Origin: an uncultured Verrucomicrobia subdivision 3 bacterium
GTDB lineage: Bacteria > Verrucomicrobiota > Verrucomicrobiia > Limisphaerales > UBA11358
Length of the DNA stretch: 48,622 nucleotides
Direction of reading: 5' to 3'
NCBI GenBank assembly: GCA_903917705.1
Contig: CAIXBQ010000160.1
Coordinates: 1 to 48,622, forward strand
The notes beneath the pieces were generated by a model. It saw only the letters and a program-made list of their open reading frames with translations. It was not told where the DNA came from and did not search any database. Both the position numbers and the translations under genes were made by a program. Shown here piece after piece: positions 24,373 to 32,638 of this stretch (its first letter is position 1; every line of letters starts with the position of its first letter).

Positions 24373-24401
24373 AATGGGGTGGCCAACGGGACTCGAACCC
24401 G
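24373..24401. repeat. Left attachment repeat (29 bp)
   Basis: This copy is identical to 32561-32589 over 29 bp (beginning AATGGGGTGGCCAACGGGAC and ending TCGAACCCG). The flanking base on each side differs between the copies. It contains the acceptor 3' strand and half of the T arm of tRNA-His, and no complete tRNA can be folded around it. Confidence 0.92.
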
Positions 24402-24757
24402 TTCCGTCAATTGCGCGACTACGCCCCAAACAGGCACCTTCCCCGCGTGAACAAATGCGATAACGGCACTTTAGCCAAAACTCAGGAAACGACCGAATCA
24501 CGCACCGTTTCACACTTCCGGTGTTGCAATCTGTTGCACGGAAAGCCGCTGGTTTCCGCTCCGGCGGCGCGGTGCCGGATTTTCTGTTTTTGCGGTGCAA
24601 GCCAGCCGTGCAACACCTGTTTGTTGCACTCGCTTTAGACGGGGCAACGGCGCGCGCTGGCGGGGCGCTGGCGAGCGTTTCGAGTGCGGGACGGGGAAAC
24701 GTCCGGCGGATGGCCCGGCGCGTCCTGGGGCGACGTGGACAACGATGCCTTGGCCGG
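24402..24757. other. Left end of the element: non-coding with integrase-arm-like octamers
   Basis: No convincing gene lies between the left attachment repeat and the 86-aa gene. Four octamers related to TGTTGCAC occur here: 24522-24529 (TGTTGCAA), 24532-24539, 24608-24615 (inverted) and 24622-24629. The tandem pair is spaced 10 bp, about one helical turn. Confidence 0.6.
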
Positions 24758-25018
24758 TTAATTCTTGTCGGGCCGTTCCCGAAACGCCTTCTCGATCTCG
24801 GCGACGGCGGCGTTCACCTCTTTGAGATACCCCTGAATGCCGGCGAATTCCAGTGCCGCCATGCTTTCGATGGACGGGCAGTTTTTGGGAATCTTGCGCG
24901 TGCCGGACAACATTTTTTCGACGTAAGGAAGAGTTCTTTTGACTTTGAGGTGCAGGGATTCGGAGTATTGGCGAAGCCGGTTGAAACTTTGCAGGAGGTT
25001 TTCATCATTTGCCAGCAT
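24758..25018 (-). CDS. Hypothetical 86-aa helical protein of the element
   Basis: This small protein is predicted to be almost all helical and has no recognised family. The ATG at 25018 has an AAAGG sequence seven bases upstream that may serve as ribosome-binding site. It is the last gene of the leftward element operon, 50 bp after the HEAGH gene. By position alone it could be a structural, regulatory or cargo protein; nothing in the sequence decides. Confidence 0.55.
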   Translation of the reverse strand: MLANDENLLQSFNRLRQYSESLHLKVKRTLPYVEKMLSGTRKIPKNCPSIESMAALEFAGIQGYLKEVNAAVAEIEKAFRERPDKN

Positions 25019-25068
25019 AAGGTGCCTTTCGTTTTAGAATCGAATCGTCATGGAACGACTTCACCAAG

Positions 25069-25845
25069 TCAAGTTGCCAGCGCGGCACGGGTTGACTTTC
25101 TGCGCGTTGCCCACGCTTTGAAAGCCCGCGCCCTGTTGCGCCAGCTTCCCGCATCGGGGAAGCCTTGCTGAAATTCCGCCAGCCGCGCCGCTGTCCAACT
25201 TTCAAGCCCTTGCTTGTGTTGCGCAGCGTCGAGCGGGAGTTTCATTTCCACGAAATACTTTTCAACACCGTCGGAAACGAAGGCGCGCAGTCTTTCGGCT
25301 GGTTCGGCGACGCCATCGGCGGCAACCACCAACTGCAAAAAGTCGGCGAGCGTGGCGGGGAATTTCGGCGGCATCGGCACACTTTGCCAGCCGCCGCCGG
25401 TCATGGCCCGCGCCAGACGGATGATTCTTGCGCGGTTGCGGCACACGATGGCGAACGCGCTTTTGCAGGCCCGCCACGATTGCCGATAGCAACCGTCAAT
25501 CCCGGCGCGGTCGCTGGCGGAAAAGCGATTGATTTGCACTTCCATGCCGGCCCACCAATCCCGCAACAGCAGAGCCGTCGGCTTGAACGGCGGCGCCCAG
25601 TCAGGCGGTGTGCCGTAGAGACATTGCGCCAGTTGCCCGCCCCACGAAATAATCGCGAATTGCAGCGGCGAGATTTTCCGTTCGCTGTAGGAGCACAATC
25701 CGGCAGCGTCGGGGTGTGTCATTTCCGAGGCGATGCTGCGGCCTTCATTCAGAATTTCAGGCAGAGCCGCGATTTTGAAGTGAGTGGCGCAAACGCTGTG
25801 CCCGGCTTCATGCACCGCCACGCTGAAGGAGTCGTCGGGATTCAT
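25069..25845 (-). CDS. HEAGH-motif metallopeptidase-like protein (M41/FtsH-peptidase-like)
   Basis: This 258-aa protein begins with MNPDDSFSVAVHEAGHSVCATHF. The zinc motif HEAGH is at residues 12-16, as in the M41 peptidase domain of FtsH, but without any AAA ATPase or membrane helix. A second region (SDRAGIDGCYRQSWRACKSAFAIVCRNRARIIRLARAM) resembles the helical part that supplies the third metal ligand region in such domains. The ATG at 25845 overlaps the stop of the upstream protease gene (ATGA), which fixes the start. Related HEAGH proteins occur in prophages, but their role is unknown to me. It occupies the slot where a capsid gene is usually found after a Mu-like protease. Confidence 0.65.
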   Translation of the reverse strand: MNPDDSFSVAVHEAGHSVCATHFKIAALPEILNEGRSIASEMTHPDAAGLCSYSERKISPLQFAIISWGGQLAQCLYGTPPDWAPPFKPTALLLRDWWAGMEVQINRFSASDRAGIDGCYRQSWRACKSAFAIVCRNRARIIRLARAMTGGGWQSVPMPPKFPATLADFLQLVVAADGVAEPAERLRAFVSDGVEKYFVEMKLPLDAAQHKQGLESWTAARLAEFQQGFPDAGSWRNRARAFKAWATRRKSTRAALAT

Positions 25846-26870
25846 GGCTGAAGTTGAAGTTGCGGTTGCGGTTGCACGTTTTTCCAAAGCGGACTCATCG
25901 CGCCGCCGAATGCCGGATCGTTTTCCAGCGCGCCCATGTTCAATTTCGCGTTCGCGTAGCAAACCACTTGTGCGGGCCGCGCCGGGTCGGTGGTCACTCG
26001 ATCCACGAAAAATGTCGGGCTGAAAGAGCGGAAATTTTTCCCCTCCACGGCTTCACGGCCGGCCAGTGACCAATCGCCGTCCGCCCAAACGCCTTCAACC
26101 AGCTTGCCGGTTGCATCAAGCCGGGTATCCCACACGAAACGAGTCGGCCAGAATGCGGCAATCTGTGTCGAATGTTGCACGCTGAAAAACGGACGGTTGC
26201 CGGACGCGGCGAGCAATTCGCGCTGTTGCTCCAGTAGTTCCGCCGATTGCTGATTCACCTCCACAAGCACGGTCACGGGCCGGCCAGATTGTGACGGGGT
26301 AATCAGGTGCAAACCCGCCGGCATATAATGCAGGTATTGCGGCAGCCCTTCGCCATCAGACAAAAGCGAACACGCCGCCCGTGCGCAGTCAATCGGCTCG
26401 GCCTGTTGCGGTTCCTGCGCGGCGGCGGGTGTTTCGTCCGCGCCTGCGTCGGCGGAGTCGGCAACTTCCGCCGGTTGCGAAAGATTGGCTTTGCCGGCGT
26501 GATACGTTTTTTGCGCCTCGTGATAATCGGCAAGGGACCGCGCTGCGCACGCGGCGGCGAAGTGCGCAAGGTGCGCGTCAAAATGCGCCTGCGGTGTATC
26601 GTCCAATTCCGCGTCGCGGCTGGCACTGGCTGCGCGGCGGCTGGCGCTGGCGGCTTGCACGCTTTTTTGCGTGCGCCCGCGCCGCCCGGCGGTGAGCGGC
26701 TCGCCAATCAGATGCTCGGCGATTTCTGTTTCCGTCAGGCGCAAGCAATCGAGCTTCAGCAATTCGGTTTGCACGTCGGCCAGCCACGGATTGTGCCCGG
26801 CGGCAACAAGCTCGTCATGCCGACGGCGGACAAGTCCGGTGGGGATTTGCGGGATATAATTCTCATTCAT
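25842..26870 (-). CDS. Mu gpI-like phage head maturation protease/scaffold
   Basis: This 342-aa protein has a C-terminal half resembling Mu-like prophage protease I. The pattern is RPFFSVQHSTQIAAFWPTRF, then GVWADGDWSLAGREAVEGK, then FRSFSPTFFVD, ending in GALENDPAF, which matches the family's L(T/E)N(N/D)PA element. The N-terminal half (1-165) is different, with an HTH-like part and an Ala/Glu-rich linker. The family processes scaffold and capsid proteins during head assembly. No capsid gene follows, so either a helper phage capsid is the target or the gene is a remnant. It starts 33 bp after terL and overlaps the HEAGH gene. Confidence 0.6.
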   Translation of the reverse strand: MNENYIPQIPTGLVRRRHDELVAAGHNPWLADVQTELLKLDCLRLTETEIAEHLIGEPLTAGRRGRTQKSVQAASASRRAASASRDAELDDTPQAHFDAHLAHFAAACAARSLADYHEAQKTYHAGKANLSQPAEVADSADAGADETPAAAQEPQQAEPIDCARAACSLLSDGEGLPQYLHYMPAGLHLITPSQSGRPVTVLVEVNQQSAELLEQQRELLAASGNRPFFSVQHSTQIAAFWPTRFVWDTRLDATGKLVEGVWADGDWSLAGREAVEGKNFRSFSPTFFVDRVTTDPARPAQVVCYANAKLNMGALENDPAFGGAMSPLWKNVQPQPQLQLQP

Positions 26871-26903
26871 GGTGTTGTTTGGTTTGGTTGTTTTGGTTTG
26901 TGT

Positions 26904-28322
26904 CTAAAGAAGTCCACGGGACTTCAAAATTGATTGGAGATTGCCTTGCTCGTTTGAAAATTGGCGCGTGAACCTGGGCTGAAAGGTTCGCGGGGCAAAT
27001 CGGTTGTCGTCGCCGACAAACACGCCTCGAATTGAAACTTCATCGAATCCACCAGCACGCGCCGGCATCATGCAGCCCAGCACCGCGTCCGCCCGGTCTG
27101 GGGACGATAAGCCACGGCTGCGCATATCGGCTTTGGATTCGAGTTGCAACCGGCCTTTGCTGTCCGGCCAGCCACGGCGCGACGTGAGTTGCGCGATTAG
27201 CTCCGGGTCGTTTGGCAGGATGATTTCGCCCTTTTCAATTTGCACGCGGCCTTCAAACCAGATTTCCGCGCCCTTGTTCGCGTAGGCTTCCGGCTTGTCG
27301 GCGGCGCTGCCGTTGTTCACGCGGTTGACGGGCCAGCCGTTTTCCGCGAGCCGGTCGCAAATGACGATGCCCAGCCCGCCCTCGTCGGCGCTGATTTGTT
27401 CGGGCGTCAGCTTTTGCTCGCGGAATAGCATGATGAATTTGCCGACGGCCTTCATGGTGTCCGTCTCGCGCCACGCGGCGACGATTTCCACGCGGTTGCC
27501 ACGGCGCACGGCTAAAACATTCTCGTCACTACCGGCCGCGAAGTCGCAAAACGCGCTTGGCGTGCCCTCGTCTTTGAACGCGGGCGGGCTGGCAAGGTTG
27601 CGTTCAACGAACACCAGCGGCACAACGCAGCCGTCCGCGTCGCCGCTCATAAACTCGCCGAAAATCATGGATTGAATCAGGGGATGCTCGCGCCCATATT
27701 TCGCAATCTGCCCGTCAATCCATTCGGCGGAAATGTGCGGGCAGTCGTAAGCCGTGACGACGTGCTGCCGGAAAAACTTCCGGCGTGAGTGAAACGCCGC
27801 GTGAAAGAATCCAAAGCAGCCGCCCGGCGACGACATACATAAAAACCGCGTCGGCGCGCAGCGTTCCACCGCCTCAAAAATCGCGTCGGGAATGCCCTTG
27901 CTTTCGTCGGCGATAATCAGCAGGTGCGGATTGTGCCAGCCTTCAAACTTGTTCGCCTCATCGGTTGCGAATCCGAATATCTTGCTGCCGTTCGCCAGCG
28001 TCACGTCGGTTGAATTGAACACGCCGCCCGGAAATTTGCCCGCGTGCCGGTGAAGCGCGGGGAATAGCTGTTCGCTAACCTGACGAAAAACACCAGCGGT
28101 GCAGATCGTGAGCGAGCCGGGAAACGCGCTGGCGTGCCACAATGCCGCCGCCGCGCCGACAACGGCGGTCTTGCCGCTGCCATTCGCCGCTCGCAACGCA
28201 ACCGCGCCGGGCAAATTCAGATCCCAAAGCACGCGCTCTTGCCACGGGTAGAGCTTCAAGCCCAGCACGCCCAGCGCGAATCCGACGGGCGTTGTCAGGT
28301 AGTCGGCGAGTTGGTTTGACAT
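26904..28322 (-). CDS. Phage terminase large subunit (TerL)
   Basis: This 472-aa protein has the terminase ATPase and nuclease architecture. A YPWQERVLW adenine-contact motif (25-33) is followed by Walker A ANGSGKT (46-52), Walker B LLIIADE (134-140) and a coupling motif LCMSSPGG. The RNase H-like nuclease domain starts near 260 (FCDFAAGSDENVLAV, with acidic residues again near SADEGGLG and SPDRADAV). TerL pumps DNA into a procapsid and cuts it. It overlaps the TerS-like gene by 28 bp. Its length and motifs look intact, so the packaging motor appears functional although no capsid genes are present. Confidence 0.88.
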   Translation of the reverse strand: MSNQLADYLTTPVGFALGVLGLKLYPWQERVLWDLNLPGAVALRAANGSGKTAVVGAAAALWHASAFPGSLTICTAGVFRQVSEQLFPALHRHAGKFPGGVFNSTDVTLANGSKIFGFATDEANKFEGWHNPHLLIIADESKGIPDAIFEAVERCAPTRFLCMSSPGGCFGFFHAAFHSRRKFFRQHVVTAYDCPHISAEWIDGQIAKYGREHPLIQSMIFGEFMSGDADGCVVPLVFVERNLASPPAFKDEGTPSAFCDFAAGSDENVLAVRRGNRVEIVAAWRETDTMKAVGKFIMLFREQKLTPEQISADEGGLGIVICDRLAENGWPVNRVNNGSAADKPEAYANKGAEIWFEGRVQIEKGEIILPNDPELIAQLTSRRGWPDSKGRLQLESKADMRSRGLSSPDRADAVLGCMMPARAGGFDEVSIRGVFVGDDNRFAPRTFQPRFTRQFSNEQGNLQSILKSRGLL

Positions 28323-28696
28323 AAATTTTTCTCCTCGTAACGGCGGCGGGCTTCCGCGATTTCGTTTAGCACTTGCGGCGACACGCTGACGGCGGTGCGC
28401 CGGTCTGAAGCATCAATGTTGACGGCAAAAAATCCCGTTCCCTTGTGACCGTCCAAACGCTCGAATAAAAGGCGGGCTGCCGACACGTCGCCGGCAATGG
28501 CCGCGTCAACCAAAGTGCGGGCGACGGATTCGAGCTTGTCCGGTTCGTTCACAAGCAGCCGTTGCAACGCAGCCGCGAGTGACACGCTGCCCTTACGCCG
28601 TCCGGCGGGATTGCCTGACACGCCTTTTTTCCACTTGAACGGGGCGACGCTCGCGCTGCGGTCGGTTGGTTGCGTGGTGTTCATCGGTTCATTCAT
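28295..28696 (-). CDS. DUF5681-type terminase small-subunit-like protein
   Basis: This 133-aa protein carries the FKWKKGVSGNPAGRRKGS motif (20-37) typical of DUF5681 proteins, which are often found just upstream of TerL and are believed to serve as small terminase subunits or DNA-binding packaging factors. The rest is helical. The gene overlaps the replication-type gene by 8 bp and terL by 28 bp. The ATG at 28696 is used; a second ATG four codons later (28684) is equally plausible. The TerS role is inferred from position and the motif. Confidence 0.7.
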   Translation of the reverse strand: MNEPMNTTQPTDRSASVAPFKWKKGVSGNPAGRRKGSVSLAAALQRLLVNEPDKLESVARTLVDAAIAGDVSAARLLFERLDGHKGTGFFAVNIDASDRRTAVSVSPQVLNEIAEARRRYEEKNLCQTNSPTT

Positions 28697-29399
28697 CGGT
28701 TAAAATTTCTGGATTCCAATTTTCCGGCACGCTGGAAACACCGCCGGGGCTGTCAGCGGCCATTTCTGCGAAATTCACAAAAGCACCGCGCCAGTCATCC
28801 ACCGGCCAGTCGCGTGAATTGTTGTATCTCACAAACCGCGCTGCCACGTCGCTCTCGAAACCTTTTTTCGCTGCGAATTGTTCAACGTCCTGAAAGGTCT
28901 CCGGTCTCTTTTCAACAGGAGGAAGGCGGCGGCGAGTTTGCGAGCCGTCGCCAGTCTTTCCTGTCCCTTGTTTCCTTGTTTCCTTCTTCCCTTCTTTGTT
29001 AGTCGTCGGTTGTCCGTCGGCTGCCCGTCTTTTGTCCGTCGGTCGGGTGTCATTCTGTCCGTCGGCTTGGATGTTCAACGGGTCAAAAAGCCGCGTGTCC
29101 ATTAGCTTTCCAAGCGTTCCTTTGTTCGTCGTTTTGAACGTCGCAAAATGCCATTTTGTAAGCTGCTCCTTCGCGGTTCGGTATTGCCTTTCGGTCATTC
29201 CGTAGCTTTCAAAATCGCCAAGCATTGCTTCCCCGCGTTCAAGCCCGTCGGCGTTGAATCCATCATGGAAACGGGCACGGTGCGCGATGACGTAAGCGAG
29301 AATGAAGGCGTTCGGATTGGCACGGATCAATTCAATTACTTCACGCGAACGCACCGCCTTAAACCACCCCACGGTTCCGCTGGATGTAAATTCATTCAC
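28689..29399 (-). CDS. Winged-helix phage replication-type protein
   Basis: This 236-aa protein has an N-terminal winged-helix region with a pattern that recurs in phage and plasmid replication proteins: RGEAMLGDFESYGMTERQYR, then KWHFATFKTTNKGTLGKL and RLFD (residues about 55-107). A charged, low-complexity linker follows (about 112-165), then a helical C-terminal domain (FQDVEQFAAKKGF, WPVDDWRGAFVNFAE). The layout is like replisome organisers, where one domain binds origin DNA and the other a helicase loader. The start is a GTG at 29399, overlapping a small upstream frame. No helicase or loader gene is in the element, so host or helper proteins would be needed. Confidence 0.6.
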   Translation of the reverse strand: MNEFTSSGTVGWFKAVRSREVIELIRANPNAFILAYVIAHRARFHDGFNADGLERGEAMLGDFESYGMTERQYRTAKEQLTKWHFATFKTTNKGTLGKLMDTRLFDPLNIQADGQNDTRPTDKRRAADGQPTTNKEGKKETRKQGTGKTGDGSQTRRRLPPVEKRPETFQDVEQFAAKKGFESDVAARFVRYNNSRDWPVDDWRGAFVNFAEMAADSPGGVSSVPENWNPEILTDE

Positions 29400-29523
29400 A
29401 AAAACCTTTCCGCCGGGCGGCGCGCCGGGCGATGGCTTTGGCAGAATACTTCCCGCGCCCTAGAACGATGTCCTCGACACGGCGGCGCATTGTGCCCGTG
29501 CTGCGGCTGGATTTGATTTTCAT
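29392..29523 (-). CDS. Possible 43-aa basic protein
   Basis: This short frame starts at ATG 29523 and encodes MKIKSSRSTGTMRRRVEDIV followed by a strongly basic tail (KAIARRAARRKG). Its stop overlaps the GTG of the replication-type gene by 8 bp, the same overlap style used elsewhere in the element. That is the main reason to believe it. No family is recognised. A short basic protein in this place could bind DNA or simply couple translation. It may also be chance, since the reading frame is short. Confidence 0.4.
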   Translation of the reverse strand: MKIKSSRSTGTMRRRVEDIVLGRGKYSAKAIARRAARRKGFCE

Positions 29524-29642
29524 AAGCAATCAGGCTGCCCGTTCAAAAAGGTTTTTCCCCGCCGGCTGACGGGAAACAAGCAACAAAAACCGTCGCGGCG
29601 CGCGCCGCTTCCATGCCGGCGGGAAAATTGAAATTGGGGTGT

Positions 29643-30176
29643 TCACTGGAGCAACGAATCAATTTCGGCCAGCGCGATAGCAACGCGACTTTCCAGCGTG
29701 TGACCGGCCATGAAGGGCAATTCCGACGTTTGGCGGCGCGGCTGGATTTCGCCGAAAAGCCGTGACAAATCCGTGAGCGCGGCACCGACTTCTTTTTCAG
29801 CCGCCCGGCGCGATGCTGGATAGTTCGCCAGAAAACTTTTCAGCAGGTCTAGCCGGATTCTTTCGGCTGCGTAGTCCAAAATCTCGTCACGGCCAGCATC
29901 GGGATTCACGGCAGATTCGAGCGCGTCCAGTTTGTGCTGCGCATCGGGCAGGCGTTCGCGGAAATTGGTTGCGCGGCTGTCCAGAGCCGCCAGATCGTCG
30001 CGCCGCAAAACCAAGACGCCGCGCATATCGCGCAACCGGTGGGCATGGCCTGGCGCGAGCGGCGGTGCCATTGTCGGCGCGGCGGATTCGGCCCGGCTGA
30101 TTTCCTCCAGCCGCAGTGACCGGGCGTGAGCCGATGTCAGCGACGCATCGGCGGCCAGAATTTCGGCGCGGTTCAC
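29643..30176 (-). CDS. Hypothetical helical protein of the element
   Basis: This 177-aa protein is helix-rich, with likely coiled-coil parts (NFRERLPDAQHKLDALES; AERIRLDLLKSFLANYPASRRAAEKEVGAALTDLSRLF). No family is recognised. The start is GTG at 30176, which overlaps the stop of the HTH gene (GTGA). A longer frame upstream would sit on top of that gene and is not used. The coupling suggests it works with, or is made in proportion to, the HTH protein. Confidence 0.55.
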   Translation of the reverse strand: MNRAEILAADASLTSAHARSLRLEEISRAESAAPTMAPPLAPGHAHRLRDMRGVLVLRRDDLAALDSRATNFRERLPDAQHKLDALESAVNPDAGRDEILDYAAERIRLDLLKSFLANYPASRRAAEKEVGAALTDLSRLFGEIQPRRQTSELPFMAGHTLESRVAIALAEIDSLLQ

Positions 30177-30436
30177 GACGCACCGCCCTTCACCGCCCGG
30201 CGTTGTGTGCGGAAATTGTCGGCGAGCCATTGCCGGACTTCCGCCATGTCGAAACGCACGCGGCGTTTGCCCAGCTTCAAATGCGGGCAGCCTTGCGCAA
30301 CGAAGTTGTCCACGCTGCGCACAGACATTTGAACCATGCTCGCCACGTCGCGTTTGCCGCCGTAGCGTTGCACTGCCGCCAACGAAGTTTGATTGCTGGT
30401 GGCGGTTTCCAGCGGTTGAATGTTTTTCGCAATCAC
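30173..30436 (-). CDS. Helix-turn-helix DNA-binding protein, excisionase/AlpA-like
   Basis: This 87-aa protein has a MerR-type winged helix-turn-helix of the excisionase family: VASMVQMSVRSVDNFVAQGCPHLKLGKRRVRFDMAEVRQWLADN (residues about 30-75), with the family's wing and W motif. Such proteins direct excision by bending attachment-site DNA, or activate integrase genes. The only start is GTG at 30436. It is the first gene after the terminator that ends the integrase unit, so it heads the leftward operon. It may control that operon as well as excision. Confidence 0.72.
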   Translation of the reverse strand: MIAKNIQPLETATSNQTSLAAVQRYGGKRDVASMVQMSVRSVDNFVAQGCPHLKLGKRRVRFDMAEVRQWLADNFRTQRRAVKGGAS

Positions 30437-30478
30437 ATGGCAACAATGCCACGCCCTGCGCGAATCAATCAGGACAGT

Positions 30479-30504
30479 AAAAAAACAGGAATTGTCCGCA
30501 ATTC
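30479..30504 (-). terminator. Terminator after the integrase transcription unit
   Basis: On the minus strand GAATTG and CAATTC (30504-30499 and 30494-30489) form a 6-bp stem with a 4-nt loop, followed after three bases by seven T (30485-30479). It starts 8 bp after the stop of the 201-aa gene. It separates the integrase unit from the operon headed by the HTH gene. The stem is AT-rich, so efficiency may be partial. Confidence 0.55.
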
Positions 30505-30511
30505 TGCGGTG

Positions 30512-31117
30512 TCAGGATGTTTTGCGGAGTCGCCCCGGCTTGCCAGGTAAGTAGGGAATGCCGATTGCATCGCAAGCCCGGCGGACGGTGCGCTGAAATT
30601 CCGCGTCCCCCTGATTTGAGTTTATCTTGTATCGCTTTTTCAGAATGTCGCAAATTTCGGCGATGGTATAACGCGGCTTCAGTGCCACGGTTTCACCAGC
30701 GGCGTTTTCGGGATAGATCAAATCAGCGCGACGGATTTTCGGCGCACCGTGAATTTCCAGCAACGCCTTTTGCAACGGGTAGGTGTCCTGCGATGTTTTT
30801 TCCGCTCTGATAGCGTCGGCCATTGCTTGAAACCAGTCGGGCTTAAAATCCCAAAGCGCATTCACCATTTGCTGTTGAAAGCGTTCAAGCAAGTCGGGCG
30901 TTCGCTTGTCCACAAACTCGTGGTTGCGTGAATCCTTCGCCATGTCGCGCCAGTGACGAAACCAGCGCACGCGCTCCGCCAGTTGGTTGCCAGCCGTCCG
31001 CCCGTAGGTGAGCAAGATTTGTTTTTCCAACGGGCTGCTTTTGGGGTCAATGTTTTTCAGAACGCCGTCGCCGGGCTTGCGTCCGCGCCGTTCCGTTCTG
31101 TGAGTTTTCTTTTTCAT
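30512..31117 (-). CDS. Hypothetical 201-aa protein downstream of the integrase
   Basis: The protein is basic at its start (MKKKTHRTERRGRKPGDG) and helical in the middle, and ends with a region that may be a helix-turn-helix (YTIAEICDILKKRYKINSNQGDAEFQRTVRRACDAIGIPYLPGKPG, about 150-195). It begins 6 bp after the integrase stop, so the two are cotranscribed. I do not recognise the family. The layout suggests a DNA-binding partner of the integrase or a regulator of the element, which is inference. Confidence 0.55.
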   Translation of the reverse strand: MKKKTHRTERRGRKPGDGVLKNIDPKSSPLEKQILLTYGRTAGNQLAERVRWFRHWRDMAKDSRNHEFVDKRTPDLLERFQQQMVNALWDFKPDWFQAMADAIRAEKTSQDTYPLQKALLEIHGAPKIRRADLIYPENAAGETVALKPRYTIAEICDILKKRYKINSNQGDAEFQRTVRRACDAIGIPYLPGKPGRLRKTS

Positions 31118-31123
31118 GGTGGT

Positions 31124-32449
31124 TCAATTCGCGGCGGTGGTTCCCACTTGCGGCAGCCGGCCGACATTCGGCGATGATTGGCGACGGGTGACGACGGGGA
31201 CGGGCTTGATTGTCGCGGGCGCGACTTCACCTTGCGGCAGCACGGCGAACCATGCCAGCCCGTCGGCGGGCTTCACCAGTTCGCGGTAGTGCCGGAAGAT
31301 CATTTGCGGACTGTTGCCGGCTTCAAGCGAAGTTTTCGCCGCGTCATGCGTCACGGCGAGCCGGTAGCTGCAAAACGAATGGCGCAAGGCGTTGTCTTTC
31401 CACTTCACGCCGGACGCCCGCAACATTTCACGCCGGGCGCGTTTGCGCTCGCGTTCACTGTGCGGCCAAACCATACCCGTCCGCCCCGCGTAAGGTTTCA
31501 ACCATGCCGACAGATTCGGCAGAATCGGCACCAGCCGGCGGGCGCGAGTCTTGGCCTTGTCCGCGCCGACGTGAATGAAGCCGCCTTCAAAATCAATGTT
31601 GCTCCATTCCAGCCGCTCGGCTTCAGCGGTGCGAAGTCCGGCGAACGCGCCCAAAGCCAGCAAGGGCAAATAATCTTCCGGCGCGTGAGTCAGCAGCGTG
31701 GTGATTTCCTTTGGCGTGAAAATTTCAATCGCGCCGTCGCTGTTGCCGGAAATTTGTTCCGTGTCGTCAACCGGATTGCAGCCTTTGGCGAGATAGCCGC
31801 GCGATTCGGCAAAACTGAAAAGCGTTTCGATGGCGGCGCGGAAGTTTTTCACGCTGCGCGGCGCGAGCTTCATGCCGTCCAACCAGCCTTGCAATTCCGG
31901 CGTCGTCACGTCGCCGATGTTTTTCTGAAATGTCTCGGCAAACCGATTCAGCCGGAAGTTCAAGTCGCGCAAGTAGCGCGGGCTTTTGCCGCGTGCCTGT
32001 TTCAACGCCAGCAATTCGGCTACCACGTCGGCAACGCGCTTTGGCGTGACGCTCCGGTGCCGTTGGTTGAAAAACTTTGCCGCTGCCACGATACCGGGTA
32101 GGTCGCTGACAAACTTCAAGGCTTGCGCCACGGCGTCAGCGGCGGACAGCAAGCCGACGTTGAACGGCTTCAGCTTTTGGACACTGGCGGCATATTCGCC
32201 GGCTTGCTCGTTTGTCATGGCAGCCGCCAGAACTTCGCACTCGCTCAATTGCCGGGCGAGCTTGCCCGCCGCTTCAAGCGCAAGGGATTCGTCGGCGTAA
32301 GAGTCAAAGCGGCGTTTTCCGTCCGCGTAGTTGGAAACCATGAAGGCAAAGTTGCCCGTCGGCGTCCGGCGACGATAGACGGTGACACTGACTCGCCCCA
32401 AAGTGATTTTGCGCGGCCAGTCCGGTTTGCGTGAACGGTGCGTTTTCAT
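31124..32449 (-). CDS. int: Tyrosine recombinase/integrase
   Basis: This 441-aa protein has an N-terminal arm-binding type domain (1-60), a core-binding helical domain (about 140-235) and a C-terminal catalytic domain (about 245-400). The catalytic residues visible are R273 (FAGLRTAEAERLEW), a K near 298-300, R356 in NALRHSF, and the nucleophile Y388 in IFRHYREL. The two histidine positions of the usual set are Asn here (N353 in place of HxxR His, and N379 in AGNSPQ in place of GH). Such changes occur in active family members. It lies 111 bp from the right attachment repeat, as is typical for tRNA-targeting integrases. Confidence 0.92.
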   Translation of the reverse strand: MKTHRSRKPDWPRKITLGRVSVTVYRRRTPTGNFAFMVSNYADGKRRFDSYADESLALEAAGKLARQLSECEVLAAAMTNEQAGEYAASVQKLKPFNVGLLSAADAVAQALKFVSDLPGIVAAAKFFNQRHRSVTPKRVADVVAELLALKQARGKSPRYLRDLNFRLNRFAETFQKNIGDVTTPELQGWLDGMKLAPRSVKNFRAAIETLFSFAESRGYLAKGCNPVDDTEQISGNSDGAIEIFTPKEITTLLTHAPEDYLPLLALGAFAGLRTAEAERLEWSNIDFEGGFIHVGADKAKTRARRLVPILPNLSAWLKPYAGRTGMVWPHSERERKRARREMLRASGVKWKDNALRHSFCSYRLAVTHDAAKTSLEAGNSPQMIFRHYRELVKPADGLAWFAVLPQGEVAPATIKPVPVVTRRQSSPNVGRLPQVGTTAAN

Positions 32450-32458
32450 GCGTCACAC

Positions 32459-32477
32459 TGTTGCACAGGTGTTGCAC
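32459..32477. promoter_or_regulatory. Right-end integrase-arm-like octamer pair
   Basis: TGTTGCAC occurs at 32459-32466 and 32470-32477, spaced 11 bp, between the integrase start and the right attachment repeat. The same octamer clusters at the left end of the element (24522-24629). Position and helical spacing fit integrase arm-type sites. The pair may also overlap the integrase promoter. Confidence 0.5.
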
Positions 32478-32521
32478 AAAGTCCACTACAAACACAATTT
32501 CGCACCCTTCAAACATGAATA

Positions 32522-32555
32522 AAACCCTTGAATCCACTATCGGAAACAAGGGTTT
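32522..32555 (-). terminator. Hairpin downstream of tRNA-His, supplied by the element
   Basis: AAACCCTTG (32522-32530) and CAAGGGTTT (32547-32555) are perfect 9-bp inverted copies with a 16-nt loop. On the minus strand the stem is followed by TTATTC. It lies 7 bp beyond the tRNA 3' end, within the integrated element, and could terminate tRNA transcription before the integrase gene. Confidence 0.5.
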
Positions 32556-32560
32556 GAAAG

Positions 32561-32589
32561 AATGGGGTGGCCAACGGGACTCGAACCCG
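32561..32589. repeat. Right attachment repeat (29 bp), inside tRNA-His
   Basis: This is the tRNA-side copy of the direct repeat also found at 24373-24401. It covers the CCA end, the acceptor 3' strand and part of the T arm of tRNA-His, so integration keeps the tRNA sequence intact. Confidence 0.92.
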
Positions 32590-32638
32590 CAACAACAAGC
32601 TCCACAAGCTTGGACTCTACCATTGAGCTATAGCCACC
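32563..32638 (-). tRNA. tRNA-His (anticodon GTG)
   Basis: The minus strand folds as a 76-nt tRNA: acceptor GGTGGCT with the extra 5' G typical of tRNA-His, a D arm (AGCTCAATGGTAGAGT), an anticodon stem CAAGC/GCTTG around TTGTGGA with GTG at 32605-32603, the T arm GCGGGTTCGAGTCCCGT, and an encoded CCA. The sequence is close to the E. coli tRNA-His that I recall. It begins 34 bp downstream of the transaldolase stop on the same strand. It is the integration target of the element. Confidence 0.97.

Follow-up and report, generated by a model that had tools for sequence, protein, structure and literature searches.

The window analysed here, positions 1 to 48,622 of contig CAIXBQ010000160.1 from an uncultured Verrucomicrobia subdivision 3 bacterium (contig C160 of G000, a 66%-complete genome in 167 contigs), contains an 8.2-kb integrated element (24373-32589) that is probably an intact phage satellite, from a group of which we found no description. 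On the best reading of its genes, this group, within one verrucomicrobial order, would encode its own terminase and head protease without scaffold or capsid and would rely on a helper phage for portal, shell and tail; its members would probably travel in particles taken from a phage.

The element is integrated at an attachment (att) site with its own integrase and lacks the full structural set, as is characteristic of satellites, and none of the portal, capsid and tail genes that would mark a complete prophage was recognized. In agreement with a preliminary description of this DNA, scans of the ten assigned proteins against Pfam and PHROGs (to E = 1) and NCBIfam (to 0.1) gave no match to families of portal, capsid, tail or lysis proteins. 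The comparison with relatives given below suggests a type of element that recurs, not a single broken virus.

Borders and gene content of the element

The borders are those given in the preliminary description, namely exact 29-bp direct repeats (29/29 identical; attL core, 24373-24401; attR core, 32561-32589) and an intact tRNA-His (GTG) gene (32563-32637, minus strand), the only tRNA predicted in the window and the attachment site; the right repeat covers the 3' end of the tRNA gene, and the left one is an exact copy of that end. All ten assigned genes are on the minus strand, with the integrase beside the tRNA and the order running toward attL: a 441-aa tyrosine integrase (31124-32449), a 201-aa protein (30512-31117), an 87-aa AlpA/excisionase-like helix-turn-helix (HTH) protein (30173-30436), a 177-aa coiled-coil protein (29643-30176), a 236-aa replication-type protein (28689-29399), a DUF5681 protein presumed to be the small terminase subunit TerS (28295-28696), the large terminase subunit TerL (472 aa, 26904-28322), a 342-aa Mu-I-like head protease (25842-26870), a 258-aa protein with an HExxH motif ('HEAGH', 25069-25845; henceforth the HExxH protein) and an 86-aa protein (24758-25018). 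The tight packing of the genes was also described correctly: 88% of the element is coding, with overlaps of 4 bp between the HExxH protein and protease genes, 28 bp between TerL and DUF5681, and 8 bp between DUF5681 and the replication-type gene, and with a fourth overlap (4 bp, with the HTH gene) if the 177-aa gene is read, as seems best, from the GTG at 30176. Open reading frames (ORFs) were called longest first, and small overlapping genes may have been overlooked. The 243-bp non-coding gap at 29400-29642 is a candidate origin or packaging site. The GC content of the element is the same as that of its surroundings.

TerL looks intact, as previously noted: it matches phrog_2 (2.5e-17), although no Pfam family, and its GKT (residues 50-52), DE (139-140), Asp260, Asp313, Asp409 and Asp412 are unchanged in all 20 of the aligned TerLs, those of phages among them. 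We take these residues to be the Walker A and B motifs and the acidic residues of the nuclease. When sequences of solved structures were searched, the nuclease end matched 'Gene 2 protein' entries (up to 4.2e-7), which we assume to be those of phage Sf6, as well as another large terminase (2.1e-8). The integrase is equally clear (PF00589, 1.3e-8; phrog_1, 6.7e-30). Three other earlier assignments stand in part. The HTH protein matches an excisionase/regulator family (phrog_66, 1.7e-7), but a TerS family nearly as well (phrog_57, 2.1e-7), and the AlpA-type match is weak; no repressor was seen among the element genes. The DUF5681 match is firm (8.1e-15), whereas the TerS role is read from the position of the gene. 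For the 236-aa protein, described earlier as a replication-type winged helix, no profile match was found in Pfam, PHROGs or NCBIfam, and the assignment draws on position and on the primase-type genes in the same slot of relatives.

Repeat clusters mark both ends of the window element and of a relative (L104, described below). Within the window, TGTTGCAC occurs seven times, five of these at most 260 bp from the two att cores. Beside attL, in the left arm (24402-24690), there are three copies in about 100 bp, at 24532 (+), 24608 (-) and 24622 (+), along with a one-mismatch copy at 24522; beside attR, in the right arm (32459-32478, plus strand), TGTTGCACA occurs twice, 11 bp apart. In L104, six of the nine copies of the TGTTGCAC octamer are at the ends, four on the left and two, again 11 bp apart, on the right (17917 and 17928), and nine copies were reached by none of 200 shuffles. 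The attL-side 316 bp of the window element (24375-24690) align with the attL end of L104 at 76%; the 86-aa gene, whose product matched no family above the cut-off, falls in a part that does not align with L104. The clusters resemble what we would expect of integrase arm-type sites, with lambda as the model. No empty att site was shown among 48 other genomes of the genus, where the best relative of the left-flank gene is 33% identical.

Relatives and the search for structural genes

When 84,980 species genomes were searched with the window TerL, one relative was returned (79% identity), in a metagenome-assembled genome (MAG) of Verrucomicrobia subdivision 3 (contig CAINLR010000131.1), with proteins identical to those of G612:C131, which belongs to the genus of the window. 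This element, L104, occupies 11.2 kb between 27-bp repeats at a tRNA-His and has the same gene order, for which the preliminary description had proposed a search of related genomes; a BT4734-like protein occupies its replication slot (PF08800, 8.6e-19), and an ankyrin protein is additional. Apart from TerL, the shared proteins are 39-79% identical, with 79% for the 201-aa protein (to L002/L104) and 39% for the 177-aa protein (to a 211-aa protein in L104; a 215-aa relative in L106 is 24% identical). The junction between the protease and HExxH genes, where capsid and tail genes in relatives were to speak against a satellite, contains a 109-aa ORF in L104 and neither capsid nor tail genes.

A further element of the same MAG (L105, on G612:C185) lies in a 29.6-kb region with 53-bp repeats at a tRNA-Pro and has a terminase pair of another family (TerS, phrog_4102, 1e-14; TerL, phrog_979, 1.6e-152). 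It encodes an integrase, a replication protein 35% identical to that of the window, a protease (60% over residues 176-329) and an HExxH protein (49%), with a 327-aa low-complexity coiled-coil protein at the protease-HExxH junction, for which PHROGs gave a match to an Rz-like family alone (0.065). The 29.6-kb region also contains a type I restriction-modification operon (HsdM, HsdS, HsdR-like), including a protein that matches the HEC-05 and PDC-M55C models (L165:7956-15644). Two other relatives are more divergent. G583:C108 encodes an integrase, a primase-like protein, another TerL, a 161-aa version of the protease N-terminal domain, a protein of the 177-aa type and an HExxH protein, and G405:C22 (L161) is a 13.1-kb element with 33-bp repeats at a tRNA-Asn, a TerL 70% identical to that of G612:C185 and a C5 methyltransferase.

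Searches of a collection of 5.8 billion proteins, with up to 8000 candidates scored for each query so that all counts are lower bounds (TerL matches included), yielded at least 53 protease and at least 35 HExxH matches; at least 15 contig sizes, compared by eye, are common to the TerL, protease and HExxH lists and presumably denote the same contigs (for example, 3,675 bp with TerL and HExxH, and 3,496 bp with protease and HExxH). One protease in the collection (P0157) is 98% identical to that of the window and an HExxH protein with the equal contig size of 103,767 (P0127) is only 66% identical, a pairing that suggests mosaic exchange within the element.

The protease was rightly described as Mu-I-like: it matches phrog_328 (2.2e-5) and, below the cut-off, PF10123 (1.1e-3; 19 bits versus 25.2), and alignment with phage proteases supports the assignment. 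His233 and Ser284, the presumed catalytic residues, are invariant in three element and nine phage proteases and in every one of the 36 rows that make up a wider alignment (A10, the window sequence and 35 of the 53 database matches; some of the 18 left out are long proteins with other Pfam domains, in which a fused capsid is possible). In the nine phage versions, the protease is close to the N-terminus and more sequence follows it, in several cases a fused capsid, whereas the element protein has no C-terminal scaffold or capsid and ends directly after the protease domain; the part it lacks is, to judge from Mu, presumably the scaffold. Instead, it has an N-terminal helical domain (residues 10-131, with a long hairpin of 68-90 and 93-131 in the structural model; pLDDT 75.8, pTM 0.49) and a low-confidence linker (132-173) ahead of the protease domain (about 176-330). 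A similar N-terminal part stands alone in G583:C108, and in G612:C185 the protease has a short N-terminus and adjoins a separate coiled-coil-like gene; on our reading, the domain is scaffold-like and could address the protease protein to helper procapsids. The protease profile retrieved nothing credible among sequences of solved structures.

The element might alternatively be a decaying prophage that has lost its portal, capsid and tail genes, given that TerL and the protease have tailed-phage relatives and that the Akkermansia phage Chantilly (ON453895.1) has both in a full structural module. We consider this unlikely. Simple decay is disfavoured because the composition recurs in divergent elements, namely in a second one at 39-79% identity, which is flanked by 27-bp repeats of its own, and in a third, whose terminase pair belongs to another family; furthermore, at least six contigs of 3.5-4.9 kb, paired by eye and presumed identical by their sizes, combine HExxH with TerL or protease and leave no room for a head module. 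The core genes are open, and comparison of the window with L104 gives dN/dS ratios of 0.17 for TerL, 0.22 for the HExxH gene and 0.25 for the protease gene (the last two with dS near saturation, at 1.6 and 1.7, respectively), 0.28 for DUF5681, 0.30 for the integrase and 0.36 for the 201-aa gene; the 177-aa-type gene is the loosest (0.43). By this measure, TerL is under purifying selection, and the sharing of protease and HExxH genes between elements with different terminase pairs suggests that the possession of a motor is itself selected.

An integrative element could also use the terminase and protease in some other way, such as phage interference, and spread by other means. Restriction-modification genes in relatives (type I in L165, the C5 methyltransferase in L161) fit such a role, and a scaffold-less protease could act as an inhibitor, but the ATPase and nuclease sites of TerL are conserved and TerS is exchanged together with TerL, which suggests DNA packaging as the selected function and makes this explanation, too, improbable.

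Contrast with phages bears on whether structural genes might have gone unrecognized. We collected 52 IMG/VR loci with a TerL 39-51% identical to that of the element and excluded 18 with less than 2.5 kb downstream of TerL; of the remaining 34 loci, a portal ORF was matched in 33 and a capsid ORF in 27 (three counted loci, L005, L010 and L028, were also used in building the portal or capsid profiles), and the element protease or HExxH protein in none. With the same profiles, the five elements gave no portal or capsid match and matched for protease and/or HExxH. Because the first profiles cover one phage type, a second pair was built from phages with a Mu-I protease; among eight phage loci outside the building sets, it detected the portal in seven and the capsid in five, whereas none of the 439 ORFs in the five elements matched either profile, the profiles of both contrasts representing few phage types. 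PHROG scans of two control phage loci returned portal, capsid and tail-fibre families, whereas the element scans (53 and 36 ORFs, the former without two L106 ORFs) listed terminases, integrases, protease, primases, methyltransferases and unnamed families among the best 25 of 52 and best 25 of 47 families. In a supplementary scan, 41 element ORFs left unassigned by these listings matched eight PHROG families in all (an excisionase, four small-terminase and three unnamed families), none of them structural. A capsid or portal profile match to any window protein, which the preliminary description regarded as decisive against a satellite with borrowed shells, was not found in the Pfam, PHROGs and NCBIfam scans.

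These scans also bear on the weakest alternative. Portals usually exceed 400 aa, and a confident, nearly all-helical model such as that of the HExxH protein is, we presume, unlike the HK97 fold; a capsid-forming satellite with a portal and capsid too diverged for detection, and with the HExxH or 201-aa protein in a structural role, is therefore very unlikely, even though the HExxH gene occupies the usual place of the capsid after a phage protease and hhalign comparison of the HExxH and 201-aa profiles with capsid and portal profiles gave no match and was uninformative, its positive control having failed too, since the HExxH motif is conserved, no protein besides the integrase and TerL exceeds 400 aa, and neither the portal and capsid contrasts nor the 41-ORF scan gave a match.

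Several observations weigh against reading the element as an intact satellite of a distinct group. Excision and packaging are read from the genes, and the TerS and replication roles of the DUF5681 and 236-aa proteins are presumed. The 29.6-kb region on G612:C185 may be composite; G583:C108 showed no flanking repeat, as its 29-bp direct repeat (29628 and 36044) does not enclose the element; and in G405:C22 the HExxH protein is divergent and the protease is lacking. The seven TGTTGCAC copies of the window were equalled by one of 100 shuffles. The one viral locus of 34 without a portal match, L054, appears by eye to be a full phage of another type, and single-sequence capsid profiles from Chantilly and L190 matched nothing, control loci included, and are uninformative. 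The group is also rare, with strong HExxH matches in three of 320 genomes of the order, including that of the window, and the only strong match among 384 genomes of the class is that of the window itself. Finally, a capsid-fused Mu-I protease, a potential mark of a helper, was found in none of G000 (66% complete), G612, G583 and G405.

Comparison with known satellites and a possible mode of action

Phage-inducible chromosomal islands (PICIs) have an AlpA-type HTH protein and a replication gene, with Stl/AlpA-type regulation and a characteristic gene order. As the relevant passages of PMC10690885 describe them, classical PICIs, including the Staphylococcus aureus pathogenicity islands (SaPIs), are small integrative elements that borrow particles and use the motor of the helper, some with their own TerS; the element is likewise small and integrative and differs in having its own TerL with intact motifs and a head protease. 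Capsid-forming PICIs (cf-PICIs) are integrative and encode capsid, portal, connectors, TerS, TerL and head protease, with tails coming from the helper (PMC10690885, same passages); the element is likewise integrative and has TerL, a head protease and a presumed TerS, but no capsid or portal match. MulchRoom and MiniFlayer, satellites of Streptomyces phages, share with it the possession of their own terminase subunits and differ in encoding portal, capsid and scaffold, with no obvious replicases (PMC10690885). The satellites described there rely on the large terminase of the helper or bring a head kit of their own. In SaPIbov5, shell assembly is redirected by Ccm, which the satellite encodes and which is homologous to a head protein of the helper (PMC8569155); Ccm is a homologue of the capsid protein and the element has a homologue of the protease, so that Ccm offers a precedent for the Mu-I-like protein. 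Terminases are not mentioned in the published description of phage-inducible chromosomal minimalist islands (PICMI). In Chantilly, a complete phage record with annotated portal, major head protein and endolysin and the order TerS-TerL-portal-protease-capsid, TerL and the Mu-I protease are 34% and 30% identical to those of the element.

The satellite logic invoked in the preliminary description is supported as to its working, but membership in the PICIs or cf-PICIs, which it had named, is not supported by the features compared. We know of no described satellite of Verrucomicrobiota, and the matches of a literature search on satellites concern, by title, defence systems and gut viromes.

A course of events consistent with the gene content can be proposed. 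A helper phage would trigger excision through the integrase and the HTH protein, and an initiator encoded by the element would serve its replication. The DUF5681 protein together with TerL would recognize the element DNA and attach to the portal of a helper procapsid, and the satellite motor would fill the shell. The protease protein might enter helper procapsids via its N-terminal helical domain and serve as a substitute or competing scaffold-protease, biasing assembly or maturation toward satellite particles; the HExxH protein would probably act on a helper or host protein, and tails and lysis would be provided by the helper. If the element indeed has a motor without its portal, a satellite motor would be working on a foreign portal, and motor-portal specificity and the matching of satellites to helpers would become testable. 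As a tentative generalization, which we hold with less than even confidence, the elements could form a satellite class with its own packaging motor, a scaffold-protease whose helical part is either N-terminal or separate (as in L105 and L106), helper shell and portal, terminase pairs swapped to match helpers, and restriction cargo.

Distribution of the HExxH gene and candidate helpers

The HExxH protein, a marker of the group and for finding further elements, consists of an N-terminal part with the motif and a helical C-terminal part; its AlphaFold2 model (pLDDT 90.5, pTM 0.66) is nearly all-helical with two short strands. The window protein matched no Pfam family at 0.1 and no family above the cut-off, its profile retrieved nothing credible among sequences of solved structures, and searches of 50,697 phage records and 72,556 plasmid records gave no match. 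Three of the 35 relatives (alignment A9) show a weak Peptidase_M50B match (best 8.8e-4), and our best guess is a peptidase with a helper or host protein as its target. The search of IMG/VR for the gene returned a single contig, L129 (IMGVR_UViG_3300014492_000528), the ORFs of which look identical to those of the G583:C108 element.

The scan of the order also gave seven weak matches (L160, L161, L162, L163, L164, L198 and G496), of which L161 was retained as the divergent relative on G405. L162 and L198 were rejected, their integrase-adjacent proteins having similarity to the HExxH protein in the C-terminal half of the latter only, as were L164, where only an integrase-like ORF is seen, and, from the scan of the class, L196 (G734), which showed no element. 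In L162 (1022-3180), at a tRNA-Thr, and L198 (2919-4945), integrases 54% and 34% identical to that of the window are found beside proteins of 238 and 229 aa, respectively. L163:5629-8396 (G489:C84) encodes another protein whose similarity is to the C-terminal half; behind its gene are ORFs of 182 and 444 aa, the latter with a P-loop-like start by eye.

The stretches examined (up to 20 kb) contained 16 phage-type loci with the protease domain. Among them, a TerL of the window family was seen only in L159 and an L106-like TerL only in L113, and a TerL beyond the stretch is possible in the others; these two loci are tentative helper candidates at best. On G612:C176 (L190:4834-10919), a phrog_2 TerL and portal-, protease- and capsid-like ORFs appear by eye in an HK97-like order, and L190 is a possible helper prophage. 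L186:9249-11502 (G000:C129) contains a TerL-like gene (phrog_2, 1.2e-27) with an overlapping upstream partner and, by eye, a glutamyl-tRNA-synthetase-like neighbour; no other phage gene was recognized by eye in 20 kb. In L187, L188 and L189 (G000:C114, G612:C90 and G612:C92), a TerL follows a possible TerS and the contigs end soon after TerL; an integrase-like gene is found upstream in L188 and a primase-like gene in L189, and the three loci are possibly further motor-carrying elements.

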